Shown one piece after another: positions 3,297 to 63,614 of a stretch of DNA of 64,000 nt. The stretch lies in NCBI GenBank assembly GCA_903875575.1, contig CAIQWJ010000074.1, forward strand, positions 124,001-188,000, written 5' to 3'. Below the pieces are notes generated by a model, which saw nothing but the letters and a program-made list of their open reading frames with translations, was not told where the DNA came from and ran no database searches. Position 1 is the first letter of the stretch, and every line of letters starts with the position of its first letter. Origin of the DNA: an uncultured Acidobacteriia bacterium (GTDB lineage: Bacteria > Acidobacteriota > Terriglobia > Bryobacterales > Bryobacteraceae). The position numbers and the translations under genes were made by a program.

Positions 3297-3299
3297 TTC

Positions 3300-3316
3300 A
3301 ATCAGAGTCAATCAGA
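3300..3316. promoter_or_regulatory. Direct repeat AATCAGA x2, possible regulator site in the BMC divergent promoter
   Basis: AATCAGA occurs at 3300-3306 and 3310-3316, exactly 10 bp apart, about one helical turn, on top of the predicted pduS transcription start. A site here could control both BMC arms. No regulator gene is seen nearby. Confidence 0.4.
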
Positions 3317-3327
3317 ATCGTCCAAAA

Positions 3328-4623: not shown

Positions 4624-4632
4624 GAGAAAAAC

Positions 4633-5193
4633 ATGGAAGATTTCGATTCAATCGGGCTGGTGGAGCTTTCGAGTGTTGCCCGCGGGTACACCGTGGAAGA
4701 CGCGATGATCAAGGCGGCCAACGTGAAGATCATCATGGCGCGCACGATTTGCTCCGGGAAATTTCTGGTGGCGGTGGCGGGCGACTCGGATGCGGTGATG
4801 GCGTCGCTGGACGCGGCTGCTAAGGCCGGACGCGGGGCGATTATCGAGAAGCGGCACATTACGCGGGTGCATCCTTCGATCTTCCCGGCGATTATGGGGA
4901 ATGTTGCGCTCGATCCGGATCAGGCCGACGCGCTGGGGATTATCGAGACGTTTTCGGCTTCGAGCATTATCGACGTGGCGGATGCGGCGGTGAAATCGGC
5001 GAATGTGGTGCTGTTTCGCGTGCATCTGGCGATGGCGCTGGGCGGCAAGGGTTTCGTGCTGATGACCGGCGACGCTTCGAGCGTGGAGACGGCTGTGCAG
5101 GTAGGGTCAGATGTGGCTGGCGAGGATGGGATTCTGGTGGATCGTCAGGTGATTCTGCGACCGGCTAAAGAGTTGTTTAAAGAGTTTATTTAA
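4633..5193 (+). CDS. pduT: PduT-like tandem BMC shell protein with a pore cysteine
   Basis: A 186-residue tandem BMC protein (BMC-T). The first domain holds ARTICSGKFLVAVAGD, matching the PduT pore region in which a single Cys from each subunit of the trimer ligates a [4Fe-4S] cluster; here it is C40. The second domain (about 97-186) has ALGIIETFSASSIIDVADAA and ends VILRPAKELFKEF. In pdu systems PduT binds PduS, and the shell-embedded cluster is thought to carry electrons between lumen and cytosol. It lies 9 nt after pduS. It differs clearly from the other tandem shell protein at 803-1375, which has no Cys in its pore loops. Confidence 0.94.
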   Translation: MEDFDSIGLVELSSVARGYTVEDAMIKAANVKIIMARTICSGKFLVAVAGDSDAVMASLDAAAKAGRGAIIEKRHITRVHPSIFPAIMGNVALDPDQADALGIIETFSASSIIDVADAAVKSANVVLFRVHLAMALGGKGFVLMTGDASSVETAVQVGSDVAGEDGILVDRQVILRPAKELFKEFI

Positions 5194-27436: not shown

Positions 27437-28309
27437 TCACGCGGCTTCGGTTACCGTAACATTGACATCGAGTCCCAGGCATGCGCCAGGCGGGCCGTCG
27501 TACGTACCCCACAACGGAAGGACCTGTTCCGGGGACCAGGCCACTGCCACGCGTATGAGATTCCGGTTGCCGATGATGCTGTTGGTCGGATCGAAGTCAA
27601 TCCAGCCGGCACCCGGCAGATAGGCCTGCATCCAGGCATGGGTTGCCCCACCGCCGACCACGACTGAGTTCGAGACTGTGGTCGGCGAGAACACGTAGCC
27701 ACTGACAAAACGCGCGGCTATGCCCAGAGATCGCGCAGCTTCCATCATGAGAACGGCGAAGTCCCGGCAGCTGCCTTTTCGGGAGAGTAGGGTCTCGGCG
27801 GGAGTCTGGACGCCTTTTTCCACCCGCCGCCCGTATTCAAAGGTCTCGCGAATCCCGTGCGTCATGGCGCGAAGAATCTTCATCGTATCGGTCGTAGCTG
27901 CCGGATCGAGGAACTGGAGCGCCCACTCGGCTACATCCTCCGCGTGATAGTGATGACTCAGCGCCCGCTCAAGATTAGGGAAATCCTCGTCGGAATAGCG
28001 AAAGGGATAGGTCCTGGCGTAGTCCTCCAGCGGATACTCGGGCGGTGAATACTCAAAGTGCTCGATGGTTACGGCACTCTCGAAGCGCAGCTCGGAAGTG
28101 GTGCCTTCGAAGGTGGCGACGGCGACGGAATTATCGAAGGGATCATGGAGCCAGCGCAGTTGCGACGGTTCCGGGAAGATCGCGAGATGAGTGCGAATCA
28201 GCCGCAGGTCGTGACTTTCGCGCGGGCGGAACATCATGCGATGTTCGCCGAGGCCGACGGGCTGTTTGTACCTGTAGATGGTGGTATGGCGGACGGTAAG
28301 AATCGACAT
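27437..28309 (-). CDS. Transglutaminase-like cysteine protease, cluster member Tgl-1
   Basis: A 290-residue cytoplasmic protein with no signal peptide. It has the bacterial transglutaminase N-terminal beta domain (about 1-85) and a transglutaminase core (about 150-260). The catalytic triad is intact: C181 in RKGSCRDFAVLM, H224 in ATHAWMQAYLPG and D240 in GWIDFDPTN. Such proteins are usually peptidases or amidases, not cross-linkers. Its start overlaps the stop of the upstream transglutaminase gene by 1 nt (TAATG). It is the terminal gene of the minus-strand part of the ATP-grasp/alpha-E/transglutaminase cluster. Confidence 0.92.
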   Translation of the reverse strand: MSILTVRHTTIYRYKQPVGLGEHRMMFRPRESHDLRLIRTHLAIFPEPSQLRWLHDPFDNSVAVATFEGTTSELRFESAVTIEHFEYSPPEYPLEDYARTYPFRYSDEDFPNLERALSHHYHAEDVAEWALQFLDPAATTDTMKILRAMTHGIRETFEYGRRVEKGVQTPAETLLSRKGSCRDFAVLMMEAARSLGIAARFVSGYVFSPTTVSNSVVVGGGATHAWMQAYLPGAGWIDFDPTNSIIGNRNLIRVAVAWSPEQVLPLWGTYDGPPGACLGLDVNVTVTEAA

Positions 28310-29160
28310 TAGCCCTGAGCACCGGGCGCGGAACCCAGAACGGGCACTTCGCCATCGGGCAACTCATCGGTCCAGACTCTGAAGTTTTCCAGCGTGTTGG
28401 GGCCGAACGTCGTGGCGATCGCTACGTCACAGGCATCGCGACCTCTGGCCATCAGGACGCGACCGAGGCGCGGGACATTGTTACGCGGATCGAAAGTATG
28501 CCAGCGCCCGCCGATCCAGGCCTCGAACCAGGCGGCGAAATCGCCCACACCGTAGGGTGGCGCGGTTCCAAGGTCGCTGAGATAGCCGGTGCAGTATCGG
28601 GCCGGAATATTCATACACCGGCAGAAGGTGACAGCCAGATGGGCGAAGTCGCGGCAGACGCCGGTTCGTTCGTTGAAGGCACCGGCGGCGCTGCGATTGG
28701 CGCGGGCATTCTGGTAGTCGAAGGCGATGTGGCGATGAACATAATCGCAGATCGCCTGAACGCGGGGGTAGCCCGGGGTCACGTGGTGGAAAAGCTGCCA
28801 GGCCGTTTCAGACAGGAAATCGGTCTCGCAATACCGACTGCCCAGAAGAAACACGAGGACGTCTTCGGGAAGGTCCTGGACGGAATCCTGACGGGCGCCA
28901 AAGATCATTTCGTCGGGCTGTCCGCTATCCCGGACAACGCAATCGGTGGTCAGGCGCAGGCGTCCCGCGGGAGCCAATACGCGATTACACCGGTTTCCGA
29001 AGGCGTCGCGGTAGGCGCTGACGGGAAGGGCGGGCTCAGTAATCAGATGGTCCGGAATCACGATATCCCGCGACCGGGAATCGTGAATATTGACGAGGAG
29101 GATGATGGGTGTGGGCTGCGGGAACTGATACACGAGCTCAAAGCCAGCGCGTAGCTGCAT
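28309..29160 (-). CDS. Transglutaminase-like protein lacking the usual His, cluster member Tgl-2
   Basis: About 283 residues from ATG 29160 (ATG 29187 is possible). The core has the catalytic Cys, C169 in RTGVCRDFAHLA, and D224 in WHTFDPRN. The HAW motif reads DFAAWFEAW, so the usual His is Ala at 210. From memory, related proteins in other bacteria have Ser or Ala here, so this marks a subfamily and not a local mutation; a different His, such as H221, might serve. The C-terminal IATTFGPNTLENFRVWTDE is typical of this subfamily. It is co-transcribed with Tgl-1. Confidence 0.88.
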   Translation of the reverse strand: MQLRAGFELVYQFPQPTPIILLVNIHDSRSRDIVIPDHLITEPALPVSAYRDAFGNRCNRVLAPAGRLRLTTDCVVRDSGQPDEMIFGARQDSVQDLPEDVLVFLLGSRYCETDFLSETAWQLFHHVTPGYPRVQAICDYVHRHIAFDYQNARANRSAAGAFNERTGVCRDFAHLAVTFCRCMNIPARYCTGYLSDLGTAPPYGVGDFAAWFEAWIGGRWHTFDPRNNVPRLGRVLMARGRDACDVAIATTFGPNTLENFRVWTDELPDGEVPVLGSAPGAQG

Positions 29161-29567
29161 GGGATACCTAAGTTTCTGCGGTGCCAAATGCCGCGGTTGG
29201 GCTCGGACTGATGACGGGACTCACACGGCCTGTGCTGTGCGGAAAAGCGAGAGAAATGGAGGGAAGCGGCCCCGGGAAGATAAGCGGACCCGGCTCGTGA
29301 CGACACCTAACAATAGCAGGTGAGGCTCCCCGCCCAGATCTTCCATAGCATGTTCGTGGCCAAAAGCGGTGGAAGGGCCGGGAATTTCAGGATGATTGAC
29401 GGCATCGGGCTGGCATGACCGCTCAACCGCGGCCAGGAACCGGCTCTCTTCGGGCATGGCTAACCAACGCCGATACGGCCAATAATATCTTTGAATGCCG
29501 CAACATACCTGTCCTGAGAGAAAATAGAAGTTTATACTTTTCTTCATCGCAAACGGAGTGGCCAACG
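29161..29567. other. Divergent intergenic region of the ATP-grasp/transglutaminase cluster
   Basis: These 407 nt separate the minus-strand transglutaminase pair from the plus-strand ATP-grasp operon. I see no convincing gene. A TTTATACTT element (29531-29539), about 30 nt before the ATP-grasp start, could be a -10 box, but it lacks a matching -35. GGAG precedes the ATG at 29568. The region probably contains promoters for both directions. Confidence 0.5.
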
Positions 29568-31013
29568 ATGCAGTTCGCCAATTACAAAACAGACGGCTTT
29601 TATGACGAGATGTTTGACGCTGCCGGCGTGCCCCGCCCGGAGGCCAAACTTCTGGTGGACACCATTGAGTCACTTGACGACGGCCAGTTTCTGCGCTGCC
29701 AGCGGTCCGCCGAACGCATCCTGCTACAACTGGGTATTACGTTCAATGTTTACGGCGATAATGCGGGTACCGAACGGATCTTTCCTTTCGACCTGATTCC
29801 GCGCATTGTCACGGCGAAGGAATGGGCATGGGTGGAGCGTGGGCTCAAGCAGCGCATTCGCGTCCTGAACACGTTCATTGACGACATCTATCACGATCAG
29901 AAGATCCTGAAAGATAAGATCATCCCGGAAGAGGTCATCAAGTCGGCGATCTTCTACAGGCCGCAGTGCATCGGGATCAACCCCCCGCGCGGCGTTTGGT
30001 GTCACATTACGGGTACCGATCTGGTGCGGCATGGAGATGGCCAGATCTACGTGCTTGAAGACAATCTGAGGGTGCCTTCCGGCGTTTCGTACGTCCTTGA
30101 GAACCGCGACTTGATGAAGCGCACGTTTCCGCAGGTGTTCGAGGGACTGAATGTTCGCCCGGTGGACGATTATCCGAGCCGGCTGCTCGAAATGCTGCAG
30201 ACGATCGGACCGCACGGGGACACAGAGAACCCGACGGTGGTGCTGCTGACGCCCGGCATCTACAATTCGGCGTATTTTGAACACAGCTTTCTGGCACAGA
30301 AGATGGGCGTGCAACTCGTAGAAGGCAGCGACCTGATCGTGCAGGACCGGAAGGTCTGGATGCGCACGACGAAGGGGCTGCGCAAAGTGGACGTGATCTA
30401 CCGGCGTATTGACGACGATTTCCTGGATCCCCTGGCGTTTCGGCCCGACTCACTGCTGGGAGTGCCCGGAATCATGGATGCCTGGCGGGCAGGGAATGTC
30501 GCACTGGCGAACGCACCCGGAAATGGCGTGGCCGACGATAAGGTCGTCTACGCCTATGTACCGGACATGATCCGTTATTACGAGGGTGAAGATCCGATTC
30601 TTCCGAATGTGCCAACCTACCTGTGCTGGAGGGATACGGACCGGCAGCATGTACTTGGAAACCTGGACAAACTGGTGGTCAAGGCGGCGAATGAAGCCGG
30701 CGGTTACGGAATGCTGGTCGGACCGCATTCCACAGCCGAACAGCGTGAAGAGTTCGCGAAGCGTATTACCGCACACCCGCGCGATTACATCGCCCAGCCG
30801 ACGCTGGCGCTTTCGAGAGTGCCAACCCTTGTGGAAGATCACTTCGAAGGTCGGCACGTAGATTTGCGGCCTTATATTCTCTATGGCAACGAAATTGAAG
30901 TACTCCCTGGCGGATTGACCCGGGTGGCGTTGCGAAAGGGATCCCTGGTTGTAAATTCATCGCAGGGCGGCGGCAGCAAAGATACCTGGGTGCTGGCGGG
31001 GGAGGCTGAGTAG
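29568..31013 (+). CDS. Circularly permuted ATP-grasp ligase (DUF404/DUF407 type), stand-alone
   Basis: A 481-residue predicted carboxylate-amine ligase. The family signature is [20 protein letters not shown] near the N-terminus, then [59 protein letters not shown], the [20 protein letters not shown] block, [14 protein letters not shown] and the C-terminal [16 protein letters not shown]-grasp enzymes join a carboxylate to an amine through an acyl-phosphate. Here the substrate is unknown. The start at 29568 follows GGAG; the frame extends upstream to 29415 without family similarity. The alpha-E gene follows 2 nt later. Confidence 0.94.
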
Positions 31014-31015
31014 TC

Positions 31016-32026
31016 ATGAACGAGACCAGACCCTTATTGAGCCGCGTGGCGGATGCTGTTTACTGGATGGCTCGCTACATTGAGCGAGCGGAGAACGTGG
31101 CGCGCTATATTGGCGTGAATCTGAATCTGCAGCTGGATCTGCCGGGGGATCCGTCGCAGCACTGGCAGTCGCTGATCGATACGAGCGGCGACAGCGCGGA
31201 GTTTGTCAAGCGATACGGCGAGGCGACGCAACACACGGTTGTGGAGTTCCTGGCATTCAACGCTGAGAACCCTAACTCGATATTCTCCTGTCTGCGTTCG
31301 GCCCGCGAGAACGCACGCAGTGTAAGGGAAACGATTTCGTCGGAAATGTGGGAGCAGGTCAACGAGATGTACCTGCACATGGCAGCGCAGCAATTGGCGC
31401 CCGGGGCGGAGTGGCTGCCGGAATTCTTCCGTCAGCTGCGCCTGAGTTCCCACCTGTTCCAGGGGATCACGGACGCCACGATGACCCACAATGAGGCGTG
31501 GCATTTTGCGAGGCTGGGGCGCAAGCTGGAGCGTGCGGACAAGACCTCCCGGATTCTGGACGTGAAGTATTTCATGCTGCTGCCGTCGCTGAGCGACGTG
31601 GGGACGCCATATGACGATATTCACTGGTCAGCCGTGCTGAAGTCGGTCAGCGGCCTCGAAATGTACCGCAAGAAGTTCGGCAAGCTGGAACCGCACGATA
31701 TCGTGGATTTCCTGGTAATGGACCGCGACTTTCCGCGCGCAATTCACTACTGCATTACGCGCGCGGACGCATCACTGCGCGCCATCACAGGCACTGAGCC
31801 GGGCACATTTCATTACCGGTCGGAGCGGCTGATGGGACTGCTTCGATCCGAACTGGATTTTACGCCGGTAGACCAGATTCTCTCGAACGGCCTGCATGGC
31901 TACCTGGACGCATTGCAGCAGAAGGTCAACGACATCGACGACGCGTTACTGACCGATTTTGTGAACTGGCGACCGCCGGTGCAGACTCAGTCGCAGACCA
32001 GTACTGTCACGCGCGGTAGCCGCTAA
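31016..32026 (+). CDS. Alpha-E (DUF403) protein
   Basis: A 336-residue all-helical protein of the alpha-E family. The signatures are LLSRVADAVYWMARYIERAENVAR at the start, FNAENPNSIFSCLRSARENARSVRETIS, and HFARLGRKLERADKTSRILD in the middle. Conserved Arg, Glu and Asp residues on the helices hint at a binding or catalytic pocket. The family is always found with circularly permuted ATP-grasp proteins and is thought to partner them; its biochemical role is not established. It follows the ATP-grasp gene by 2 nt, and its stop overlaps the next start (TAATG). Confidence 0.93.
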   Translation: MNETRPLLSRVADAVYWMARYIERAENVARYIGVNLNLQLDLPGDPSQHWQSLIDTSGDSAEFVKRYGEATQHTVVEFLAFNAENPNSIFSCLRSARENARSVRETISSEMWEQVNEMYLHMAAQQLAPGAEWLPEFFRQLRLSSHLFQGITDATMTHNEAWHFARLGRKLERADKTSRILDVKYFMLLPSLSDVGTPYDDIHWSAVLKSVSGLEMYRKKFGKLEPHDIVDFLVMDRDFPRAIHYCITRADASLRAITGTEPGTFHYRSERLMGLLRSELDFTPVDQILSNGLHGYLDALQQKVNDIDDALLTDFVNWRPPVQTQSQTSTVTRGSR

Positions 32027-35000
32027 TGGGAATCAAAGTCGCGCTTCATCATAAGACGGTCTACAAGTATGACCGTCTGGTTACACTCGGGCCGCAGGTT
32101 GTGCGATTGCGTCCGGCTCCGCACAGCCGCACGCCGGTGACAAGCTACTCGTTGCGGGTGGAGCCGAAGGCTCATTTTATTAACTGGCAGCAGGATCCGC
32201 AGAGCAACTACATTGCGAGGATTGTAATACCGGACCCGACGCGCGTGTTTTCGCTCGAAGTGGATCTGGTGGCCGAGATGACGGTCCTCAACCCGTTCGA
32301 CTTCTTTCTGGAGCCGTACGCCGACCGTTTCCCGTTTACGTACGAGAAGTCACTCGCCAGAGAACTGCTGCCATTTCTGGAATTGCTGCCATGCGGTGCG
32401 GCATTCGAAAGATTCATGGACTCTCTTGATCGATCCGAGAAGCAGACGATCGACTATCTGGTGACTCTGAATCAAACGGTGCAGCACGCGGTTGGGTACC
32501 TCATCCGAATGGAGCCCGGGGTACAAACACCGGAGGAAACGCTCACCCTGAAGACGGGGTCGTGCCGCGATTCGAGCTGGCTGCTGGTGCAGGTACTGCG
32601 GCATCTCGGTCTGGCAGCGCGTTTCGTATCCGGATACCTGATTCAGCTGAAGCCGGACGTAAAGGCACTGGACGGGCCCTCCGGCACGGAGTACGATTTT
32701 ACCGATCTGCATGCATGGGCAGAAGTCTATCTGCCAGGTGCCGGCTGGGTAGGGCTGGATCCAACGTCGGGACTATTCGCCGGCGAGGGACATATTCCGG
32801 TGGCCGCGACGCCTGATCCGCAGTCCGCCGCACCGGTTTCCGGCGGTGTGACGCCAAGTGAAGTGGAATTTGACCACCAAATGACGGTGACGCGAATTCA
32901 CGAAGACCCGCGCGTCACAAAGCCGTATTCCGACGAGGAATGGGATCAGATTCTCGCGCTCGGCGACCGGATCGACGCCGAACTGGATGCCTGCGACGTT
33001 CGTCTCACGATGGGCGGGGAACCCACGTTTGTTTCGATTGACGACGTAGACGGCGATGAGTGGAATACGGCGGCGGTGGGCCCGAACAAGCGGAGACTGG
33101 CGGGGGAATTATTGTGCCGCCTTCGCGACAAGTTCGCACCGGGTGGTTTGCTGCACTTCGGACAGGGGAAATGGTACCCGGGAGAGTCGCTGCCTCGCTG
33201 GGCTTATACCTGCTTCTGGCGTACGGACGGATATCCTCTCTGGCAGGATCCGCAATGGGTAGGCGAGCCGGATAAGGACTATGGATTCGGGCTGGCGCAT
33301 GCCGAGGATTTCGCAATTGAGCTTGCGAAACGGCTCAGGATCGATGAAGAGTTCCTGATTACGGCATACGAAGATCCGCTCGAGTATCTTCATGCGGAAC
33401 GCAAGCTGCCGGTTAATGTGGACCCGATCGACAACAACCTGGACGATGCGGAGGAGCGGGAGCGTCTGCGCCGCACGTATGAACGCGGGCTAAACGTGGC
33501 AACGGGCTATGTGCTGCCATTGCAGTGCATGCGCGGGAAGAATGGGGTGGAGTGGCAATCCGGGCTTTGGATGCTCCGTGCCCAGCATCTTTACCTTGTG
33601 CCAGGCGATTCTCCGATCGGATTCCGGCTGCCGGTAGCGGCGCTGCCCTGGGAGCCAGTTGCGAAGCGGCGGCAGGTTTTCGTAGTGGACCCCATGGCTC
33701 CGCTGGGGCCGCTGCCGACACCGCAGGAGGCGGATGTCACAGGCCAGAAAAAACAGGTAGCGCGGCGGGCACCGGCCCGGGCGAAGGCTTCGCAGCCACG
33801 AGGGCCGGTCGTCAGAACGGCGCTGGCGGTGGAGGCCAGGGAAGGGCGAATCTATGTTTTCCTGCCACCCGTGGACACCACCGAAGCCTATGTGGAATTG
33901 GTGGCCGCCATTGAAGACACGGCAGCCCGTCTGGAAATGCCGGTGCTGATGGAGGGCTACACGCCACCGTCGGATCCGCGACTGCGGCGTCTGGGCGTCA
34001 CGCCGGATCCGGGCGTGATCGAAGTCAACACGCAACCCGCCGCAAGCTGGACCGAACTGGTGGCAAACACGGTGGAACTCTACGAACAGGCGCGACTGAC
34101 GCGGCTGGGAACGGAAAAGTTCATGCTGGACGGCCGGCATACGGGAACAGGCGGCGGCAATCATCTGGTGCTCGGCGGCCACACTCCTGGTGACAGTCCT
34201 TTCCTGCGACGACCGGATCTTTTGCGGAGTCTGCTCGGATACTGGGTGAATCATCCGTCGCTCTCGTACTTGTTTTCGGGCGTGTTTATCGGGCCGACGA
34301 GTCAAGCCCCGCGGCTGGACGAGACGCGTCCGGATGCGGTTTATGAGTTGGAAATCGCCTTCAGCCTGCTGGATGAGAATCTGAAGCCGGAAAACCTGCC
34401 GGCCGAAAGGGCATCGGACTACGCACCGTGGCTGGTGGACCGGTTGTTCCGCGACCTGCTGGCGGATGGAACCGGCAACACGCATCGGGCTGAGTTCTGC
34501 ATCGACAAACTGTTTTCGCCGGATTCCTCCAGCGGGCGACTGGGGTTGCTGGAACTGCGGGCGTTTGAAATGCCGCCGCACGCGCGGATGAGTCTGGCGC
34601 AGCAGTTGCTGGTGCGGGCGCTGGTGGCCCGATTCTGGAAGGCAACGTACACGGATCCGCCGATCCGCTGGGGGACCCGTCTGCATGATCGGTACCTGCT
34701 GCCCTATTACGTGGAAAAGGACTTTGGTCTGGTGGTGCAGGAGTTGCGCGCCGCCGGATATGACATGAAGACTGAATGGTTCGGCCCGCATGTCGAATTC
34801 CGGTTCCCTGTCTATGGCCGCGTGAACTACGACGGCATCGAAATTGAACTTCGTCAGGCGATTGAACCCTGGTACGTTCTGGGTGAGGAACCGGGCGGCG
34901 GGGGGGCGGCCCGCTACGTGGATTCATCGGTGGAGCGGATGCAGGTGCGGGTCACCGGGCTGATCAGCGAGCGGTATTGTGTCACGTGCAACGGGCGTCG

Positions 35001-35415
35001 ACTTCCGCTGGAATCCACGGGCACGCATGGAGACTATGTGTGCGGCGTCCGTTACAGAGCCTGGCAACCGCCGCGCTGTCTGCACCCGACGATTCCGGTG
35101 CATACGCCGCTCGTGTTCGATCTGGTGGATTTGGCGGCGGGCCGTTCGATTGGCGGCTGCACTTATCACGTGGGACATCCCGGCGGGCGGAACTACGATA
35201 CCTTCGCGGTAAACTCAAACGAGGCGGAGGCCCGACGAAGGGCGCGCTTTCTGGCATTTGGTCACACGCCGGGGCCGATGGCGGAGCCGCCCGTGGAAGA
35301 AAACCCGGAATTTCCGGCAACGCTGGATTTGCGAAGGAAGAACCCGCGGGGAACCGCTATGTACGGTGTCGGCCCGGCGGGGCCAGGCGCTCGCGGAAAG
35401 AAGACCCGAAAGTAG
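32026..35415 (+). CDS. Transglutaminase-DUF2126 fusion, cluster member Tgl-3
   Basis: An 1129-residue protein. Residues 1-85 are the transglutaminase N-terminal domain and about 150-260 the core, with the full triad C180 (TGSCRDSS), H229 (DLHAWAEVYLPG) and D245 (VGLDPTSG). From about 290 it continues as DUF2126, with LTMGGEPTFVSIDD, YPGESLPRWAY, IEVNTQPAASWTELV, LDGRHTGTGGGNHLVLGG and a long C-terminal region. The DUF2126 motifs ending in a GTGGGNH loop and conserved Asp/Glu/Asn residues suggest an enzymatic, possibly ligase-like fold. A Lys/Pro/Ala linker near 570-600 splits it. It completes the first ATP-grasp/alpha-E set. Confidence 0.94.
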   Translation: MGIKVALHHKTVYKYDRLVTLGPQVVRLRPAPHSRTPVTSYSLRVEPKAHFINWQQDPQSNYIARIVIPDPTRVFSLEVDLVAEMTVLNPFDFFLEPYADRFPFTYEKSLARELLPFLELLPCGAAFERFMDSLDRSEKQTIDYLVTLNQTVQHAVGYLIRMEPGVQTPEETLTLKTGSCRDSSWLLVQVLRHLGLAARFVSGYLIQLKPDVKALDGPSGTEYDFTDLHAWAEVYLPGAGWVGLDPTSGLFAGEGHIPVAATPDPQSAAPVSGGVTPSEVEFDHQMTVTRIHEDPRVTKPYSDEEWDQILALGDRIDAELDACDVRLTMGGEPTFVSIDDVDGDEWNTAAVGPNKRRLAGELLCRLRDKFAPGGLLHFGQGKWYPGESLPRWAYTCFWRTDGYPLWQDPQWVGEPDKDYGFGLAHAEDFAIELAKRLRIDEEFLITAYEDPLEYLHAERKLPVNVDPIDNNLDDAEERERLRRTYERGLNVATGYVLPLQCMRGKNGVEWQSGLWMLRAQHLYLVPGDSPIGFRLPVAALPWEPVAKRRQVFVVDPMAPLGPLPTPQEADVTGQKKQVARRAPARAKASQPRGPVVRTALAVEAREGRIYVFLPPVDTTEAYVELVAAIEDTAARLEMPVLMEGYTPPSDPRLRRLGVTPDPGVIEVNTQPAASWTELVANTVELYEQARLTRLGTEKFMLDGRHTGTGGGNHLVLGGHTPGDSPFLRRPDLLRSLLGYWVNHPSLSYLFSGVFIGPTSQAPRLDETRPDAVYELEIAFSLLDENLKPENLPAERASDYAPWLVDRLFRDLLADGTGNTHRAEFCIDKLFSPDSSSGRLGLLELRAFEMPPHARMSLAQQLLVRALVARFWKATYTDPPIRWGTRLHDRYLLPYYVEKDFGLVVQELRAAGYDMKTEWFGPHVEFRFPVYGRVNYDGIEIELRQAIEPWYVLGEEPGGGGAARYVDSSVERMQVRVTGLISERYCVTCNGRRLPLESTGTHGDYVCGVRYRAWQPPRCLHPTIPVHTPLVFDLVDLAAGRSIGGCTYHVGHPGGRNYDTFAVNSNEAEARRRARFLAFGHTPGPMAEPPVEENPEFPATLDLRRKNPRGTAMYGVGPAGPGARGKKTRK

Positions 35416-35609
35416 GAAGCTGGCTGGAATGAGGCTATGCGAAACAAAATGACAAATGTTCACGGCCCCTGTCCGGCACGGGAACACTCTGCGGCCGGAC
35501 GCGCGGAGGTCGTGCGTGCGGCAGTGCGCGGGCGGAATGGACGAACAGCCGAATTCCAGCGAAGTGACTCCGTGACGCAGGGGCTGGCTTGCTGAAAAGT
35601 GCGGATTCA

Positions 35610-38171
35610 ATGAGGCAGGATTCCGCGCCATCGGGTGTTCACGGAATGGTCCGACAATATGTGCCTCACGAGGGTCATTGGGACGAGGCCCTGCTGGAGT
35701 CGGGCTATCCCCGGCGGCACTGGCGGCAGCTTTCCGTAGCGTTGGGGCGGATGGGCTTCCGCCAACTCAGCAATCGCTGGCGGACGGGCCAGCAGATCAT
35801 TCAGGCCAACGGCGTTACTTACAACGTCTACGGAGACCCCCAGGGTAAAGAACGTCCCTGGTTGATGGACCCTATCCCACTGCTGATCGACGAGGGCGAA
35901 TGGGCGCACATCGAGAAGTCGATCATTCAGCGGGCCACACTTCTGAATCAAATGACGGCCGACCTTTATGGGGAACAGAAGCTCCTCCACAGTGGCAGGA
36001 TTCCGGCGGCGATTCTGTTCGGCAATCCCCATTTCCTGCGGCCTTGTTTTGGCATCAAGCCACCCGGCGGAGTTCACATCCACAGTTACGCGGCGGATAT
36101 GGCCCGGGCTCCGGATGGTACCTGGTGGGTACTCTCTGATCGCACGCAGGCACCTTCAGGCGTGGGCTATGCGCTGGAGAATCGGCTGGTCAGCGCCCGG
36201 ACGCTGCCTTCGGTCTTTAATCTGTGCCAGGTACGACAGCTGAATCGTTTTTTCGAAGTGCAGCGCGAGGGTTTACTGGGACTGGCACCACGCTCAACGG
36301 TGAATCCACGGCGGAGTCCGCGCGTGGTGTTGCTGACGCCGGGGCCGCACAACGAGACCTATTTCGAGCATTCGTTTCTGGCACGCCACTGGGGCTTTCC
36401 TCTGGTGGAAGGCGCGGATCTGATCGCTCGCGACGACCAGGTGTTTCTGAAAACGCTGGCAGGGCTGGAACCCGTGGACCTGATCCTGCGGCGTGTGGAC
36501 GATGGATTCTGCGACCCGCTGGAACTGCGCAGCGAATCCCTGCTCGGCGTACCGGGCCTGCTGCAGGCAGTGCGCGCAGGCAACGTGGTGGTGGCTAACG
36601 CGCTGGGCAGCGGCCTGCTGGAGACACCGGCACACATGGCTTTCCTGCCCGGTCTTTGCCGCGATCTGCTGGGTGAGAAACTGCTGATGCCCTCGGTGGC
36701 CACGTGGTGGTGTGGCCAGGAAGGACCGCGAAAGTACGTACTCGATCATCTGGAAGAAGTGGTGATCAAGCCGGCTTTCCCGCGTTTCGGCCAGAAAGTG
36801 GAATTTCCGGCCATGCTGAAGCGGGCGGAGCGAGCGGATCTGGCTCGACGCATCGAAGCGCATCCGGAGCAGTTCGTGGCGCAGGAACAGGTGGCGCTTT
36901 CCACGGCGCCAGTGCGGACAGAATACGGCATCGCGCCCCGCCATGTGGTGGTTCGCGTCTTCGCCGCCTGGGATGGCGAGGGCTATACAGTACTGCCCGG
37001 CGGGTTGACACGCGTCTCGACGGCGGATAAATCGCTGGTCGTTTCCATGCAATTGGGTGGAGGCAGCAAAGACACCTGGGTTCTCGGCAAGGACAAGGAT
37101 GAGGAAGCACCGCGCCCACCTGCGACGGAGTCTGTGATTGCCCCACGGGGTACCGGGGAACTTCCCAGCCGCGCGGCGGACAATTTGTTTTGGCTGGGCC
37201 GCTATGCGGAGCGGGTGGAAGGAAGTGTACGGCTGGTTCGGACGCTGTTACCCGGGCTGTCCGGAGAAGCGGATTTCGGGCGCTCGGCATCTCTTGAAAC
37301 CGTCACGGAACTGCTGGCAAATCTCCGCTACCTGCCGGAGAGCCACGTCACGAGTTCGCTGGCGCAGCAGCGCTGGCAATTGCAGCGCCTGCTCACCGGA
37401 ATGGTTTACGATCCCTCGCGAACGACCGGCATCGGGTGGAATCTCAAGCAGATTCGCCGGGTTGCCTGGCCGCTGAAGGAACGTCTTTCGCAGGACACGT
37501 GGCGAGTTCTGCAACAGCTGGACCTTGAGTTCTCCAACGCGGCACCAGGAAATGCGGACCAGACTTTCGTCGCTGAAATGAATCTGCTGGACCGCGCGAT
37601 CCTGACGCTGTCCGCCTTTGCCGGATTGCTGATGGAGAACACGACGCGGGGTTACGGCTGGCGTTTTCTGGAGATCGGTCGCCGACTGGAGAGAGCGCTG
37701 CAGACCGCCAACCTGCTCGATGCCGCGCTGGGGCGCGCCGATATGAGCGACGAGGGCGAATTGGAGCCTTGTCTCGAGGTCCTGCTGCAGGTTGCGGATA
37801 GCTCCATCACTTACCGGACACGGCATCTGACCGTCATGCGAACTGATTATGTCCTCGAGTTGCTGCTGGCGGATGAGGCGAATCCGAGATCTGTAGCGTT
37901 CCAGCTCGTGGCGCTGCTCGAGCAGATCCATCATCTGCCCGGACGTGAGACGGACGACAGCGCGTCACCGGAAGAGAAACTGCTATCGAAAGCTTTGGGT
38001 GCCATCAGGCAGGCGTGGATGGAAGATTTAGGGAAGATGGACACCGAGGGACATTTGAGCGCGCTGGGCGAACTCACGCAGCAGGTCCGTGGCACGCTCT
38101 ACGATTTTTCCGATGCTCTGACGGCGCGGTATCTCAGTCATCTGATGCAGTCCCGGCTTCATTCCGCTTAG
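35610..38171 (+). CDS. Circularly permuted ATP-grasp fused to alpha-E domain
   Basis: An 853-residue protein from ATG 35610; TTG 35589 in the same frame is possible. Residues about 20-510 are a circularly permuted ATP-grasp ligase ([92 protein letters not shown]). Residues about 535-853 are an alpha-E domain (SRAADNLFWLGRYAERVEGSV, RGYGWRFLEIGRRLERALQT). In the first set of this cluster the same two parts are separate genes, so the fusion shows they act as one complex. It lies 173 nt behind the DUF2126 gene and 12 nt before Tgl-4. Confidence 0.94.
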   Translation: MRQDSAPSGVHGMVRQYVPHEGHWDEALLESGYPRRHWRQLSVALGRMGFRQLSNRWRTGQQIIQANGVTYNVYGDPQGKERPWLMDPIPLLIDEGEWAHIEKSIIQRATLLNQMTADLYGEQKLLHSGRIPAAILFGNPHFLRPCFGIKPPGGVHIHSYAADMARAPDGTWWVLSDRTQAPSGVGYALENRLVSARTLPSVFNLCQVRQLNRFFEVQREGLLGLAPRSTVNPRRSPRVVLLTPGPHNETYFEHSFLARHWGFPLVEGADLIARDDQVFLKTLAGLEPVDLILRRVDDGFCDPLELRSESLLGVPGLLQAVRAGNVVVANALGSGLLETPAHMAFLPGLCRDLLGEKLLMPSVATWWCGQEGPRKYVLDHLEEVVIKPAFPRFGQKVEFPAMLKRAERADLARRIEAHPEQFVAQEQVALSTAPVRTEYGIAPRHVVVRVFAAWDGEGYTVLPGGLTRVSTADKSLVVSMQLGGGSKDTWVLGKDKDEEAPRPPATESVIAPRGTGELPSRAADNLFWLGRYAERVEGSVRLVRTLLPGLSGEADFGRSASLETVTELLANLRYLPESHVTSSLAQQRWQLQRLLTGMVYDPSRTTGIGWNLKQIRRVAWPLKERLSQDTWRVLQQLDLEFSNAAPGNADQTFVAEMNLLDRAILTLSAFAGLLMENTTRGYGWRFLEIGRRLERALQTANLLDAALGRADMSDEGELEPCLEVLLQVADSSITYRTRHLTVMRTDYVLELLLADEANPRSVAFQLVALLEQIHHLPGRETDDSASPEEKLLSKALGAIRQAWMEDLGKMDTEGHLSALGELTQQVRGTLYDFSDALTARYLSHLMQSRLHSA

Positions 38172-38183
38172 AGAACCGCACCC

Positions 38184-39056
38184 ATGGCAACGACGTATCG
38201 CACCATCCACACGACGACGTATCGCTACGAAGGCCAGGTCTCCCAGAGCATCAGCGAGGCCCGGCTGAAGCCAAGGAATTTTGCGCGCCAGCGGGTTCTG
38301 GAGACTTCTGTGACCGTGCAGCCTGGTTTCGCGACACAGGAATCGCGCACGGACTACTTCGGGAATCATGTCACAACGATCGCAGTCTTTGGAACGCACG
38401 AACGGTTTGTGGTGACATCATCCAGCGTTGTGGAGGTTGGACTGGTGCCGACGGGAGAGTTTCCCTTGATCCCGTGGGATGCGGTGCGCGAACAACTGGC
38501 GGTGCCCGTGGATGAGGAGAGTCTGGCGGCTTCGGAGTTTGTTTTCGACTCGCCGTACGTCCCCTCTATCAAGGCAGTGGAAGACTACGCCCGCCAGACT
38601 TTCCGGCCCGGCAGGCCGATTGTGGAAAGCATGAGGGAACTGAAACATCGCGTTCACGACGAGTTTGTTTATAAACCGGAATCCACATCGATTGAGATCC
38701 CGCTTCAGGAAGTAATGGACAAACGGCACGGCGTTTGCCAGGATTTCGCGCACGTCATGATTGGTGCGCTCCGCAGCGTGGGACTGGCGGCACGTTACGT
38801 GAGTGGGTACCTGCGAAGCGGCGTGGACGTTCAGGGTGCGGAGGCTTCGCATGCCTGGGTTTCGGCATGGGTGCCGGGGGCAGGGTGGCTGGATTTCGAT
38901 CCGACCAACGACGTGATGCCGGCGGAAGGGCACGTGACGGTGGGCTGGGGCCGCGACTTCGGCGACGTCACCCCGCTGAAGGGCGTGGCGCTCGGCGGCG
39001 GCGGGCAGAAGGTAGATGTAGAAGTTCGTGTGACGCCGATTTCCGCAGCGGCTTAA
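38184..39056 (+). CDS. Transglutaminase-like cysteine protease, cluster member Tgl-4
   Basis: A 290-residue protein with a transglutaminase N-terminal domain (YRTIHTTTYRYEGQVSQSIS) and core. The triad is complete: C185 in RHGVCQDFAHVM, H223 in ASHAWVSAWVPG and D239 in WLDFDPTND. It follows the ATP-grasp/alpha-E fusion gene by 12 nt and closes the second set. The C-terminus (GVALGGGGQKVDVEVRVTPI) matches the usual end of cluster-linked transglutaminases. It has no signal peptide, so it should act in the cytoplasm with the ligases. Confidence 0.93.
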   Translation: MATTYRTIHTTTYRYEGQVSQSISEARLKPRNFARQRVLETSVTVQPGFATQESRTDYFGNHVTTIAVFGTHERFVVTSSSVVEVGLVPTGEFPLIPWDAVREQLAVPVDEESLAASEFVFDSPYVPSIKAVEDYARQTFRPGRPIVESMRELKHRVHDEFVYKPESTSIEIPLQEVMDKRHGVCQDFAHVMIGALRSVGLAARYVSGYLRSGVDVQGAEASHAWVSAWVPGAGWLDFDPTNDVMPAEGHVTVGWGRDFGDVTPLKGVALGGGGQKVDVEVRVTPISAAA

Positions 39057-58944: not shown

Positions 58945-59318
58945 TGCGTAGCAAGAGCACCGTTCTCACCCAGCAGGAACTCGAAATCATGAAGGTCGTC
59001 TGGGAGCATGACACCGTCACGGTCCGCGAAGTTTACGAAACGCTGCTGAAGAAGCGTAAGGTCGCGTACACCACTGTCATGACCATGATGAAAATTCTGG
59101 AGCAGAAGAAATATCTGAAGAAGGACCAGACAGACCGCGCGCATGTTTACCGCCCCGCGCAACCGCGCCGCAAAGTCGTCGGCGATATGGTGCGCGATTT
59201 TGTGAATCGCGTCTTCAACGGGTCGGCCGAACCTCTCCTGGTGCATCTTGTGGAAGAACACGATCTCTCCCGCGAAGACCTGGCCGAGATTGCACGTATG
59301 CGGAAGGAAAAGCCATGA
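58944..59318 (+). CDS. BlaI/MecI/CopY-family transcriptional repressor
   Basis: A 124-residue winged-helix repressor. Residues 5-75 are the DNA-binding domain (LTQQELEIMKVVWEHDTVTV, YTTVMTMMKILEQKKYLKKD), and the C-terminal half is the dimerisation domain. The protease-cleavage and dimer region matches BlaI (FVNRVFNGSAEPLLVHLVEE). In the classical system BlaR1 senses beta-lactam and its protease relieves BlaI repression. Here no beta-lactamase gene is seen; the next genes are two BlaR1-like proteins. The start at ATG 58944 has no Shine-Dalgarno and overlaps its own operator, so translation may be leaderless. Confidence 0.93.
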   Translation: MRSKSTVLTQQELEIMKVVWEHDTVTVREVYETLLKKRKVAYTTVMTMMKILEQKKYLKKDQTDRAHVYRPAQPRRKVVGDMVRDFVNRVFNGSAEPLLVHLVEEHDLSREDLAEIARMRKEKP

Positions 59319-61198
59319 GCGCACCGCAAATAGTCGCCAATATCGCGGCGTTTGCACTCCAGATCGCCCTGGTGACGGGCGTGGGTGCGCTGTTCGCTCT
59401 GCTTCTGCGAAGACACGAGCCTCGCCTGCGTTTGGTCTTCTGGCAAGTACTGCTGGTCGCGTGCCTGGCCCTGCCGTGGATTCGCGGCTGGCGACAGGAG
59501 GTTGTTACAGCCACGGCACGCGTGGAAACGGAAGCCGTCGCGCCCATGGCGACCTTACCGATCGCACCTGCCCGCCGCCCGCTGCCGAGTACGGAAATCG
59601 CACTGAGCGTGTTGGCCGCCGGTGCGGCGCTGCGGCTGGGATGGCTGCTCCTCGGACTGTTCCGTCTGTCCGGATACCGCAGGCGGGGCCGTGCCACGCA
59701 ATTCATTCCCGGCGTTTCGGGCGTGGATGTGCTCCTTTCAGATGACGTCGCCGGACCGGTCACGTTTGGCTGGCGCAACCCGGTCGTACTGTTGCCGGAA
59801 AGCTTCCCCGCCATGCCCGCCGAGATGCGAGATGCCATCCTCTGCCACGAACTCACCCACGTGGAGCGCAAGGACTGGACGTTCGCCATGGCGGAGGAAC
59901 TCGTGCGTTCCGTGCTCTGGTTTCACCCCTGCATCTGGTGGCTGATCGCTGAAATCCAGTTGTCGCGCGAGCAAACGGTGGACCAGATGGTGATCGAAAT
60001 CACCCGGGCGCGTGGCCCTTACATCGACGCGCTTCTCATGATGGCGGGAGCCGCAGATTCGGGAACGCCGCGGCTCGATCTCGCCCCCGCACCCATGTTC
60101 CTGCGTCGGAGGCATCTCAAACGAAGGCTGCTGGAAGTGGCCGGGGAGTCCAATATGAAAAACCTTTCAAAGATTCGCCTGGCGTGTGCCGGCTGCGCAG
60201 CGGCGGTCATGCTGGCAGGTGTTTGCTGGCTCGCGACCGGTGCCTTTCCGCTGACAGCAGCACCACAGACCGTGAGCGACGCGGTGGGTGTCGCCGTGAA
60301 CGCCAGCGGGTTACCGCTGCTGCACAGGCCGTCGATGGCTTATCCGGCTGAGGCTTTGGCGAAAGGTATCCAGGGAACGGTCGTCGCGGAGTTGAAGCTC
60401 GACGCCCGGGGAGAAGTGAGCGATGCCTTGATTCTCAGCGGGCCGGAGGCCCTGCGCAGGAACGTGCTGCAGTCTGTCCTGACATGGCATTTCGATTCGT
60501 CTGTTGCCTCGACAGCGCGCACCGTAAGCATTGACTTTGCGAAGCCGGCCAATGCGGCGGATCCGGCGGTTCATCCGGCCCCGACCGCCGCCTTTGCCCC
60601 CGCAAACGGCCCGGCGTCCCGGCCGGCAACGCCCCGTCTGGTTCGCATTCTGGTCAGCGGTCTCTCGCAACAGGCGCAGGCAGCTCTTCTTGCCCGACTG
60701 CCGGTTCACGAGAGATCGGCCTGGTACCCGGGACTGCTCGCCTCGGTGGAAAAAGCCGCCAAAGACTTCGATTCCCATCTGAAAACGACCGTCTTCCTCA
60801 ACCGAGGTAACCAGCAGGAGGTCGCCCTGCTGATCGGCCCGGAAGCCGAGGGAGTTCCTCCACAACCAGCGCAGGCCCTGAACACTCCTGCTTCACCTCT
60901 GCCCGCGGGCGTTTACAGCGTGGGCAATGGCGTCCTGCAGCCGATGTTGATCAGCAAAGTGGATCCCCAGTATTCGGAAGAAGCCCGCAAGGCGACATTC
61001 AACGGCACCATGACGCTTTCGGTTGTGGTTGACACCGACGGGAAGGCGGAAAACGTTCAGGTTGTGCGCAGCCTCGGCATGGGCCTGGACGAAAAGGCGA
61101 TTGAGGCGGTTCGGCAGTGGGTGTTCAGACCGGGCACCTATCAGGGAGCACCCGTGCCCGTGCGGGCGATGCTCGAAGTGAATTTCCGCCTGTTGTAA
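59315..61198 (+). CDS. BlaR1/M56-family sensor protease with POTRA-like and TonB C-terminal domains, copy 1
   Basis: A 627-residue membrane protein overlapping blaI by 4 nt (ATGA). Residues 1-290 are the M56 part: membrane helices, and the zinc motif HELTH at 178-182 in CHELTHVERKDW, with the downstream SREQTVDQMVIE segment. After a further helix, a TonB-like domain lies at about 330-400 (LLHRPSMAYPAEALAKGIQG). A POTRA-like segment follows at about 440-500 (VRILVSGLSQQAQAALLARL) and a second TonB domain at about 540-627 (ISKVDPQYSEEARKATFNGT). The beta-lactam sensor domain of BlaR1 is absent, so the signal must differ. Confidence 0.9.
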   Translation: MSAPQIVANIAAFALQIALVTGVGALFALLLRRHEPRLRLVFWQVLLVACLALPWIRGWRQEVVTATARVETEAVAPMATLPIAPARRPLPSTEIALSVLAAGAALRLGWLLLGLFRLSGYRRRGRATQFIPGVSGVDVLLSDDVAGPVTFGWRNPVVLLPESFPAMPAEMRDAILCHELTHVERKDWTFAMAEELVRSVLWFHPCIWWLIAEIQLSREQTVDQMVIEITRARGPYIDALLMMAGAADSGTPRLDLAPAPMFLRRRHLKRRLLEVAGESNMKNLSKIRLACAGCAAAVMLAGVCWLATGAFPLTAAPQTVSDAVGVAVNASGLPLLHRPSMAYPAEALAKGIQGTVVAELKLDARGEVSDALILSGPEALRRNVLQSVLTWHFDSSVASTARTVSIDFAKPANAADPAVHPAPTAAFAPANGPASRPATPRLVRILVSGLSQQAQAALLARLPVHERSAWYPGLLASVEKAAKDFDSHLKTTVFLNRGNQQEVALLIGPEAEGVPPQPAQALNTPASPLPAGVYSVGNGVLQPMLISKVDPQYSEEARKATFNGTMTLSVVVDTDGKAENVQVVRSLGMGLDEKAIEAVRQWVFRPGTYQGAPVPVRAMLEVNFRLL

Positions 61199-61220
61199 CG
61201 CACTCTCCGGGAGAAACACT

Positions 61221-63614
61221 ATGGACACCGCACAAATCTGGAACAACGTCCTCGTCTATGGGGTACAGATCGGGCTGCTGGTCGGGATCGGCGCGGGGCT
61301 GCCTGCGCTGTTGCGACTCCGGGTTGCGCACGCGCGCCTGTTGTATTGGCAGTTCTTGCTGGTGGCGTGCCTCGCCTTGCCGTGGTTCCGGCCATGGCAG
61401 AGCGAAGTTGTGGCGGTCAACCCCGCAGCGGTTACATGGCTGCACCCCGCGAACGTGCAGATTGCTCCGCCGGTCGCGTCTTTCGTCATGCCGTCATTCC
61501 CCACCATCGCATTATGGCTGCTCGCGGCCGGCATGGCGGCACGCCTGGCCTCGCTCGCGCTCGGCTTGCTGAAACTATCCCGCTATCGCCGCCGCGGACA
61601 CGCGATTCCGTTGCCCGCGGAGTGGAGATCTACCGCCAGGCCCGCCCGGATTCTCGTTTCGGAAGAAGCTGCGGGACCCGTGACTTTCGGTTTCTTCCGC
61701 CCCGTGGTCTTGTTGCCATCGAGTTTCCCGGCTATGCCTGAGAGCATGCGCAACGCGATCCTGTTCCACGAACTGCTGCATGTGGAACGGCACGACTGGC
61801 TGTTCACGCTCGGCGAGGAAATCCTCCGTGCCGCGTTCTGGTTCCATCCCGCCGTCTGGTGGGTGTTGGGAGAAATTCAGTTGTCGCGCGAACAGACTGT
61901 GGACCAGGCAGTGATTGAAATGACGCAATCGCGCGACCCCTATGTGGACGCCCTGCTCGCCATGGCCGGTGTTCACCAGCCACTGGAGCTATCGCCCGCG
62001 CCGCTGTTCCTGCGCCGACGGCATTTGAGACAGAGAGTATTTGGAATTGTTCAGGAGGCGAGGACGAAGATGTCGAACACGAGAGTGAGACTGGCCCAGG
62101 TGGCGGCGGTCATGACGATTGCGCTGGCGGGCTGGTTCGTGACGGGTGCCATTCCCCTGCATGCGCAGCCGCAGGTGGTGACCGATGGACCAGGCGTTTC
62201 GGTGAATCTGAATGGTTCGCAATTGCTGCATCGCCCCGCAGTGATGTATCCAGCGGATGCGCTCTCGAAGGGAGTGGAAGGGACTATCGTGGCGCAGGTA
62301 CGGCTCGATTCGTCAGGCGAAGTGATTGACGCGGCGATTCTCAGCGGACCGGATGAATTACGCAGGAGCGTGCAGCAATGTGTATTGACGTGGCATTTTG
62401 ATCGGAGCGCGGGTTCGGCGGTGCGCGTGGTCAATATCGACTTCGTGAAGCCGTTCGCTGCGCCGTCTGCTGGTGACAACCTGAACAGCGCAAAGGCCGA
62501 GTTGCAGTCCGCGAATGACAGTTTGACAGCGGCACGACAGGTGCAAGCCCCGGCGACGCAACTTGAACAATTGAGTTCCCGTCAGGCAGCAGCAGATCAG
62601 ACCTACCAGAATCTATTGCGGCAGGCGCAAACGGCGCAGGCAGGCCAAGCGTTACTCCAGCGACCAGCCGCAGCGCCAAACGACCAGGCACTGGAACAGC
62701 AGTATGAGTTCCTGCGAAGCGCCGTGACGCAAGCACAGGAGCAGTTGGCAACAGCCCGGCAACAGCAGGCATCTCCGTTGCAGATTCAGAGTCGACAGTC
62801 CACGGTCGATGACGTGTATCGGAGATTAGTTGCCTTCAAGGAGGCAAACGCGGGCACACTGCCGGAATCCAGGATTGCCATCCAGCAGCAGGCGGTTGTG
62901 GGTTTCGTTCAGGACTTACTCGACAAAGCGCGGTATGACCTCGCACAGTCGCAGCAGCAACACGCAACACCGGAGCAGCTACGCCAGAACCAGAGCGTTG
63001 TTGATGACATCACCAGGAAACTGCAACTTGCTCAGGCCAACAGCGCCCAGATCCAGCGCTTCGCCGAATCCGGCATCATCGAACGGATCGAAGTCACGGG
63101 CCTGTCCGACTCCGCTAAAGCCGAACTTCTCGAACAACTGCCGGCCCATGTGGGCGACCCGTACTCGTTCGAGAAATTGCAACCCATTCAGGCAGCAGTC
63201 ACGCGATTCGACTCCCATCTGATCGTGGCCGTCAGCGGCAGACCAGGTGCCTACACGCTCAACATCCGCACGCAACAGCCGTCTGCCTTCACAACACCCG
63301 CAACTCCAGGCACTTTGCCGGCAGGCGCGGTCAGAGTAGGTGCTAATGTCCAGGCAGCGAACCTGATCAGTTCCCCCGCCCCCACCTATCCACCACTCGC
63401 GAAGATGGCGCGCCAGCAAGGCACCGTGACGCTGGAGGCGACCATCGGAAAAGACGGCACCATCCAGGACCTGAAAGTGATCTCCGGACCACCGCTGCTG
63501 ATCCCGGCTGCCATGGACGCCGTCAAGAAATGGGTTTACAAGCCGTGGCTGTTGAACGGCACACCAGTGGATGTCCTGACCACGATCGACATTCACTTCA
63601 CCCTCGCGCCATAG
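61221..63614 (+). CDS. BlaR1/M56-family sensor protease with coiled-coil, POTRA-like and TonB domains, copy 2
   Basis: A 797-residue paralogue of the preceding protein, 22 nt downstream. The M56 part has HELLH at 183-187 (FHELLHVERHDW). A TonB-like domain lies at about 334-400 (LLHRPAVMYPADALSKGVEG). Copy 2 has an inserted Gln/Ala-rich coiled coil at about 425-615 (QLEQLSSRQAAADQTYQNLL). Then come a POTRA-like domain at about 617-690 (IERIEVTGLSDSAKAELLEQ) and a TonB domain at about 713-797 (PAPTYPPLAKMARQQGTVTL). No penicillin-binding sensor domain is present. It probably senses an envelope signal and relays it to BlaI. Confidence 0.9.
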   Translation: MDTAQIWNNVLVYGVQIGLLVGIGAGLPALLRLRVAHARLLYWQFLLVACLALPWFRPWQSEVVAVNPAAVTWLHPANVQIAPPVASFVMPSFPTIALWLLAAGMAARLASLALGLLKLSRYRRRGHAIPLPAEWRSTARPARILVSEEAAGPVTFGFFRPVVLLPSSFPAMPESMRNAILFHELLHVERHDWLFTLGEEILRAAFWFHPAVWWVLGEIQLSREQTVDQAVIEMTQSRDPYVDALLAMAGVHQPLELSPAPLFLRRRHLRQRVFGIVQEARTKMSNTRVRLAQVAAVMTIALAGWFVTGAIPLHAQPQVVTDGPGVSVNLNGSQLLHRPAVMYPADALSKGVEGTIVAQVRLDSSGEVIDAAILSGPDELRRSVQQCVLTWHFDRSAGSAVRVVNIDFVKPFAAPSAGDNLNSAKAELQSANDSLTAARQVQAPATQLEQLSSRQAAADQTYQNLLRQAQTAQAGQALLQRPAAAPNDQALEQQYEFLRSAVTQAQEQLATARQQQASPLQIQSRQSTVDDVYRRLVAFKEANAGTLPESRIAIQQQAVVGFVQDLLDKARYDLAQSQQQHATPEQLRQNQSVVDDITRKLQLAQANSAQIQRFAESGIIERIEVTGLSDSAKAELLEQLPAHVGDPYSFEKLQPIQAAVTRFDSHLIVAVSGRPGAYTLNIRTQQPSAFTTPATPGTLPAGAVRVGANVQAANLISSPAPTYPPLAKMARQQGTVTLEATIGKDGTIQDLKVISGPPLLIPAAMDAVKKWVYKPWLLNGTPVDVLTTIDIHFTLAP

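Follow-up and report, generated by a model that had tools for sequence, protein, structure and literature searches.

Does a locus that carries two ATP-grasp/alpha-E sets perform two ligations? The question is raised by positions 27437-39056 of a 64,000-nucleotide stretch (hereafter the window) of contig CAIQWJ010000074.1, which belongs to the 5.98-Mb genome of an uncultured Acidobacteriia bacterium. Open reading frame (ORF) calling and Pfam identified seven genes there, encoding four transglutaminase-like (Tgl) domains, two ATP-grasp proteins, two alpha-E units and one DUF2126 protein, the same content that a previous sequence-only reading had listed. That reading regarded the cluster as a candidate undescribed system in which set A, with a separate ATP-grasp (ATP-grasp A) and alpha-E (alpha-E A), and set B, with an ATP-grasp-alpha-E fusion (fusion B), make two related ligations. 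We compared both sets across relatives and found that ATP-grasp A carries the predicted residues of a competent ligase and that fusion B does not, which makes fusion B a predicted pseudo-ligase, old and conserved.

Catalytic residues of ATP-grasp A and fusion B

Rows were typed as A or B by their better phmmer match to the two proteins of the window, independently of the catalytic residues. Loci L107-L117, from the same genomes as other loci, were omitted from the residue counts, L101 rows were included, broken frames were left unrepaired and, in one earlier alignment, identical rows (one B row) had been removed. Aligned to A, fusion B shows S-D-R in place of E-D-N, and both the G-G-Y-G loop and the Asp of D-L-R are gone. 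Whereas E215, N217, K423, G430 and G432 were present in all 101 readable A rows, E215 was found in only 1 of 40 B rows and N217 in none (Arg in 37), leaving E-x-N intact in 0/40. E427, which we equate with the last of the three residues (Glu, Asn, Glu) that bind metal in glutathione synthetase, was present in 92 of 101 A rows (six Gly, two Ala and one Leu in the others) and in no B row. The three residues E215, N217 and E427 occurred together in 91/100 A and 0/39 B rows, all of them being absent in 38 of the 39. D483 was missing from every readable B row, and the glycine loop was variable and mostly lost in B (G430 in 14/41 and G432 in 7/41 rows). Since a profile of A against PDB chains gave nothing useful besides 3n6x, which was also its sole useful PDB match in the sequence search, the equation of A residues with metal ligands is a putative one. 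We also equate D202 of B with D141 of the fungal E-64 ligase Cp1B, and E215-x-N217 with its E163-x-N165 by motif, without residue-level structural alignment. In Cp1B, alanine at R139, D141, E163 or N165 abolishes or significantly lowers activity (PMC12568646).

Both proteins lie far above the 32-bit cut-off of the CP_ATPgrasp_2 profile (574 bits for A, 502 for B). The structural model of fusion B (predicted local distance difference test, pLDDT, 79.5; predicted template modelling score, pTM, 0.59) matched 3n6x with a template modelling score (TMt) of 0.87, eukaryotic glutathione synthetases with about 0.54-0.68, Cp1B (9cjn) with 0.59 and the E. coli glutathionylspermidine synthetase with 0.41. 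Glutathione-synthetase-like ligases (homoglutathione synthetase, GspS, Cp1B) thus have their fold in common with the B model and their E-x-N in common with ATP-grasp A; unlike them, fusion B is devoid of E-x-N. Following citations, we assume that YgiC/YjfC also belong among these ligases.

In a tree of A and B, built with a quick method and with some long B branches, a single branch with a Shimodaira-Hasegawa-like approximate likelihood ratio test (SH-aLRT) value of 100 split 40 B rows from 99 A rows (L100 and L101 were omitted for broken A or B frames), and B was found across several phyla. B also has characteristic invariants in its ATP-grasp part: Ser225 is replaced by Gly in 40/40 rows, W374 and G376 are kept in 39/39, and C375 is among the invariant columns across 37 fusions, within a B-specific W-W-C-G motif. 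In the alpha-E part, E23 (35/38), R24 (38/38), E172 (37/38) and R173 (37/38) are retained. Simple decay of B does not account for the retained alpha-E E-R motifs and for the invariants specific to its ATP-grasp part. The literature searched, which did not cover Iyer 2009, contained no mention that we found of this residue loss, so its novelty is unsure.

The same invariants would be expected if fusion B had been repurposed to bind a nucleotide or an activated intermediate and to perform an altered reaction at a new site, with Arg/Gln standing for Asn/Arg and W-W-C-G beside them. Arg at 217, Gly at 225, the invariant W374, C375 and G376, and K423, which 30 of 40 B rows retain, are in line with such a change, but the variable glycine loop and the loss of all three equated metal ligands from nearly every row are not, and we consider it unlikely.

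Occurrence of fusion B, DUF2126 and Anbu

Loci were read with the proteins of the window as queries. The 80 loci on named genome contigs, the best 80 of 559 when ranked by similarity to A, all contain A for that reason; counts on 81 loci refer to these 80 plus the window. Since this set was chosen by A, the association of B with A was assessed in whole genomes and replicon records. DUF2126 was detected in 11 of 396 Acidobacteriota genomes; A was present in 11/11 of them and the long fused B in 10/11, these ten B genomes being reached via DUF2126. A survey of 119 genomes gave a strong match to circularly permuted ATP-grasp in 17, the long fused form in two (the window's genome and G112) and the fused form alone in none. 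In seven of the ten B genomes (G112, G147, G202, G249, G352, G359 and G370) A is retained without an adjoining B, because it sits on another contig (five) or more than 2.5 Mb away (two); as all seven belong to one genus, they count as one lineage. Three of six named replicons carry A and B together (Azospirillum W01, Shinella W02 and Burkholderia cenocepacia W06, which has one B and three A). No whole genome that was checked has the predicted pseudo-ligase B without a live A.

Among the 81 loci, B was found in 23, DUF2126 in 25, both in 20 and the proteasome-family protein Anbu in 25. Anbu was present in 0/28 loci bearing B or DUF2126, and thus in none of the 23 B loci; another 28 loci, some of them on short contigs, had none of the three. 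The closest double-set loci among the best 80 of 559 (L011-L014) have A, alpha-E A, Tgl-DUF2126, fusion B and Tgl in the order of the window. Among 16 further regions, taken from records of plasmids or chromids, Enterobacter (L092) has these five genes in unchanged order, and Caballeronia (L099) and Burkholderia cenocepacia (L093, where the order is A, alpha-E, Tgl-like, Tgl-DUF2126, fusion B, Tgl) carry the five plus extra space or an additional Tgl-like ORF. DUF2126, B and Tgl without an adjacent A were observed in Granulicella (L091), Azospirillum (L098), Shinella (L102) and Caballeronia (L105); B with Tgl in Sphingomonas (L103) and Sinorhizobium (L106); and A, alpha-E and Tgl without B in L095, L096, L097 and L104. 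Frames were broken in L100 and L101. The conserved cassette hence consists of five genes: ATP-grasp A, alpha-E A, Tgl-DUF2126, fusion B and Tgl4. The double set of L092 lies on the 90.7-kb IncFII plasmid p1_120063 of Enterobacter roggenkampii, with IS6-family/IS26 transposase genes flanking both sides. In Methylomonas, ATP-grasp A and alpha-E are followed by an ORF of 1171 amino acids (L088:12603-16115) that matched no Pfam family.

The operon type ATP-grasp/alpha-E/Tgl/Anbu, whose prediction is credited to Iyer 2009, has been described with structures (PMC5666114, PMC6376114), and these papers agree with the sequence-only reading in crediting to Iyer 2009 a module for amide or peptide ligation. 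As in the window, ATP-grasp A, alpha-E and Tgl genes are adjacent in the Anbu operon, and A proteins of Anbu loci share the same side of the A/B branch with those of DUF2126 loci; unlike that operon, the window has no Anbu but Tgl-DUF2126 and fusion B instead. The cluster is therefore a DUF2126-bearing version of a published operon of known kind. The term "undescribed" is not supported, since two Anbu structure papers and an assay of one ATP-grasp have already been published on this operon type (PMC5666114, PMC6376114), and genes of the DUF2126 version have appeared in a published NtrC regulon (PMC5491218). In the Yersinia bercovieri Anbu operon, the ATP-grasp protein, which we liken to A by operon type and not by sequence, frees phosphate from ATP (PMC6376114).

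No Anbu-like ORF of at least 120 amino acids was found in positions 20001-48000 of the window, and a search of the genome with one Anbu query, run without positive control, gave no match. The PF00227 profile missed a clear Anbu (L016), hence its genome result says little on Anbu. A proteasome-family protein of 290 amino acids with a weak score (29 bits) is encoded on the contig of the cluster, at a distance of about 147 kb (L005:1165-2037; G000 contig C74:4385-4912). Strict exclusivity of Anbu and DUF2126 was rejected, since on an Acidithiobacillus caldus plasmid (L094) DUF2126, A and alpha-E stand with two Anbu-like genes (60 and 87 bits), B being absent there. The exclusivity of Anbu versus DUF2126/B (Fisher p = 2e-6, uncorrected for kinship) concerns loci rather than genomes. 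In an A-only tree from which L094 and unlabelled rows were excluded, and in which L124, L128 and L133 carried labels set by hand from whole-genome results, 59 rows labelled DUF2126/B (34) or Anbu (25) require a minimum of 8 changes of partner. The window's A falls in a six-row group whose members all have DUF2126 and B (G289 by whole-genome search), and an adjoining group of nine Acidobacteriota rows comprises eight with Anbu and L025, a short contig that shows neither partner. These partner changes, together with neighbouring groups that have different partners, indicate that A/alpha-E is a shared core with exchangeable partners.

Expression of relatives has been reported to respond to nitrogen. 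In an ntrC mutant of B. cenocepacia H111, I35_5080-83, four genes that like those of the window are named ATP-grasp, alpha-E, Tgl and large Tgl, showed values of -8.2, -9.4, -9.4 and -6.0 (PMC5491218); the window itself gave no sign of nitrogen control. On nitrate versus ammonium, PP_2688 (ATP-grasp) of P. putida was raised by 4.0 log2 and PP_2685 (Anbu) by 4.4, and in reporters at nitrogen depletion the PP_2688 promoter increased 3.7-fold whereas that of PP_2685 was unresponsive (PMC8050072). Values of PP2685-PP2687 were raised under nutrient limitation (PMC3325844), but PMC5666114 cites work in which expression was unchanged under various conditions. In the Acidithiobacillus cluster (L094), ntrC and glnL lie some kilobases away and an aliphatic amidase gene is nearby. 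A simple consensus scan for sigma-54 sites, run without shuffled control, placed plus-strand sites ahead of L031, L092 and L099 and a weak site on the minus strand in L093. It gave none for the window, L011-L014, L053, L068, L094, L104 or four Anbu-type loci, and sigma-54 control of the window's cluster was set aside. Some proteobacterial relatives respond to nitrogen limitation; the window showed no promoter of this kind.

These data would fit a mainly degradative, nitrogen-scavenging set, in which proteins or peptides would be tagged by the ligases and then degraded by Anbu or, in this cluster, by Tgl. The nitrogen responses above, the presence of Anbu in 25 of 81 loci and the neighbours of the Acidithiobacillus set argue for it, but the searches for Anbu at this locus and in this genome were negative (with the limits given above), no sigma-54-like site was found in the window by the simple scan, the Anbu promoter did not respond in the P. 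putida reporters (PMC8050072), and Anbu peptidase activity was absent on the substrates tried (PMC6376114). We therefore judge this explanation improbable.

The cassette and its neighbours

Table 1. The seven genes of the cluster and their predicted domains
Feature	Position in the window	Strand	Characteristics
Tgl1, neighbour gene	27437..28309	-	Pfam Bact_transglu_N and Transglut_core; C-H-D triad intact
Tgl2, neighbour gene	28309..29187	-	Pfam Transglut_core; triad C-A-D, His replaced; one-base overlap with Tgl1
ATP-grasp A, circularly permuted type 2	29415..31013	+	CP_ATPgrasp_2, E 2e-172
alpha-E A	31016..32026	+	Pfam Alpha-E, 7e-101; E-R motifs conserved
Tgl-DUF2126	32026..35415	+	Bact_transglu_N, Transglut_core and DUF2126 (putative amidoligase), E 0; C-H-D intact
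Fusion B, predicted pseudo-ATP-grasp (residues ~1-500) and alpha-E B (~525-849)	35589..38171	+	CP_ATPgrasp_2 1e-150, Alpha-E 1e-64
Tgl4, final cassette gene	38184..39056	+	Bact_transglu_N and Transglut_core; C-H-D intact; same place in L011-L014

Within the cassette (Table 1), ATP-grasp A and alpha-E A are separated by 2 bases, alpha-E A and Tgl-DUF2126 overlap by one base, and the gaps ahead of fusion B and Tgl4 measure 173 and 12 bases. The Tgl1/Tgl2 pair is divergent from the cassette and was not seen at L011-L014 within the available flanks (the upstream flank of L013 is just 2.7 kb), for which reason we regard both genes as neighbours outside the conserved cassette. Genome-wide Pfam searches detected two CP_ATPgrasp_2 proteins above the cut-off (a third, on contig C5, was below it), two alpha-E and three Bact_transglu_N, and since all of these sit in the cluster, their clustering is non-random. 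Among the best 80 of 559 loci, ATP-grasp A is closest to those of Acidobacteriota metagenome-assembled genomes, including Bryobacteraceae.

The 173-base gap contains mechanical ORFs of 52 and 39 amino acids. Because the corresponding gap in L011-L014, taken from the first start codon of B's frame, is at most 14 bases or an overlap, no conserved gene is expected in it. No precursor peptide gene was clear within the cassette gaps, genes elsewhere not having been sought, in agreement with the sequence-only reading. None of the seven proteins had a defence-system match in PADLOC at E 0.1 or any match in NCBIfam, and the alpha-E sequence gave only chance-level matches against PDB.

DUF2126 (PF09899, 1294 bits) is labelled a putative amidoligase in Pfam, and many of its charged residues are invariant in the 38 rows compared. 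Its model (mean pLDDT 67.9) matched glutamine synthetase 8fbp weakly, with a probability of 0.97, E 0.04 and TMt 0.31; matches of the model to a diphtheria-toxin fold were disregarded, their probability being about 0.1 or less. On account of the Pfam label, the invariant charged residues and the weak glutamine synthetase matches, DUF2126 is probably a second, glutamine-synthetase-like amidoligase. The three Tgl domains with a C-H-D triad could cleave or transfer amides. Homologues of Tgl2 have H, C or S at the His position, and some adjoin such clusters on the opposite strand (L096, L105).

Elsewhere in the window, positions 803-5193 hold microcompartment-type genes, with bacterial microcompartment (BMC) shell proteins at 803-1375 (minus strand) and 4633-5193 (plus strand) and, among them, a phosphate propanoyltransferase, an acetate kinase and an RnfC/Complex1_51K protein. 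Positions 59315-63614 encode two adjoining proteins, each with BlaR1-type M56 peptidase and TonB C-terminal domains.

Roles of the two sets

Domains, residue loss, conservation and co-occurrence were computed here, and ATP use and nitrogen response are taken from published papers. With these data, the explanation that we favour, with moderate confidence, is that in this cluster A is the one ATP-grasp ligase, DUF2126 probably a second amidoligase and B a non-catalytic partner, with cysteine amidases alongside. ATP-grasp A, together with alpha-E A, would convert a carboxylate to an acyl phosphate and join it to an amine, as the only competent ATP-grasp of the cluster; DUF2126 would act as a second, glutamine-synthetase-like amidoligase on the same product line; and the amide so formed would be cut or transferred by the Tgl domains. 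As scaffold, binder of substrate or product, or regulator, fusion B would be a non-catalytic partner of the A pair and not a second ligase. We infer this role of B, the order of the steps and the class of substrate.

Several observations weigh against this explanation. Genome G349 has DUF2126 and A but no B in the whole genome, and B is the sole PF14403 match on three of the six named replicons (Sphingomonas W03, Caballeronia SBC2 W04 and S. meliloti Ak57 W05), each of them a single replicon; tblastn found further ATP-grasp matches, of A or B type not distinguished, on other records of Caballeronia sp. SBC2 (H54) and S. meliloti (CP090105.1, H40). Within reach of five of the 25 DUF2126 loci, some of which lie near a contig end, there is no B, and no DUF2126 adjoins the B of S. 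meliloti L106 or Sphingomonas L103, so B and DUF2126 are separable. Evolutionary distances of A and alpha-E A correlated with 0.87 (L100 and L101 being omitted from all such correlations). For A and B, the co-evolution called for by the sequence-only reading was detectable (Mantel p 0.003) but weak (rho 0.33, n=35), and for B and DUF2126 the correlation was non-significant (rho 0.12, p 0.135, n=32), which argues against a tight co-evolving complex. Pull-downs of Yersinia Anbu-operon proteins, from an operon described without B, gave no specific interactions (PMC6376114). The ligase fold of DUF2126 is weakly backed (E 0.04, model pLDDT 68). Finally, retention by B of D202 (36/41) as well as K423 would be compatible with nucleotide binding or altered chemistry.

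A bolder form of the favoured explanation, which we offer only tentatively and hold to be rather doubtful, is that the double set is an obligate live-plus-dead pair. A and B would form an asymmetric synthase in which the alpha-E of B holds the growing amide between A, DUF2126 and Tgl, and A/alpha-E would be an engine whose outputs are either Anbu (breakdown) or DUF2126, B and Tgl (further ligation). That sets A and B each form an amide is very improbable, since fusion B retains the overall fold and is present in several phyla but none of its 40 rows has the E-x-N intact, at places whose counterparts in Cp1B do not tolerate alanine without loss or significant lowering of activity (PMC12568646); if two ligations exist, DUF2126 is more likely than fusion B to be the second enzyme.

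The genes occur in many phyla, and the literature searched has assigned no product to them since the prediction of 2009. What is new here is a conserved pseudo-ligase that would form one half of the double set. With one ligase-competent ATP-grasp of the two, a biochemist could choose one protein for assays and the other as bait. Because Anbu and DUF2126 with B interchange beside the same A/alpha-E core, the common reaction may be separated from its two outputs.

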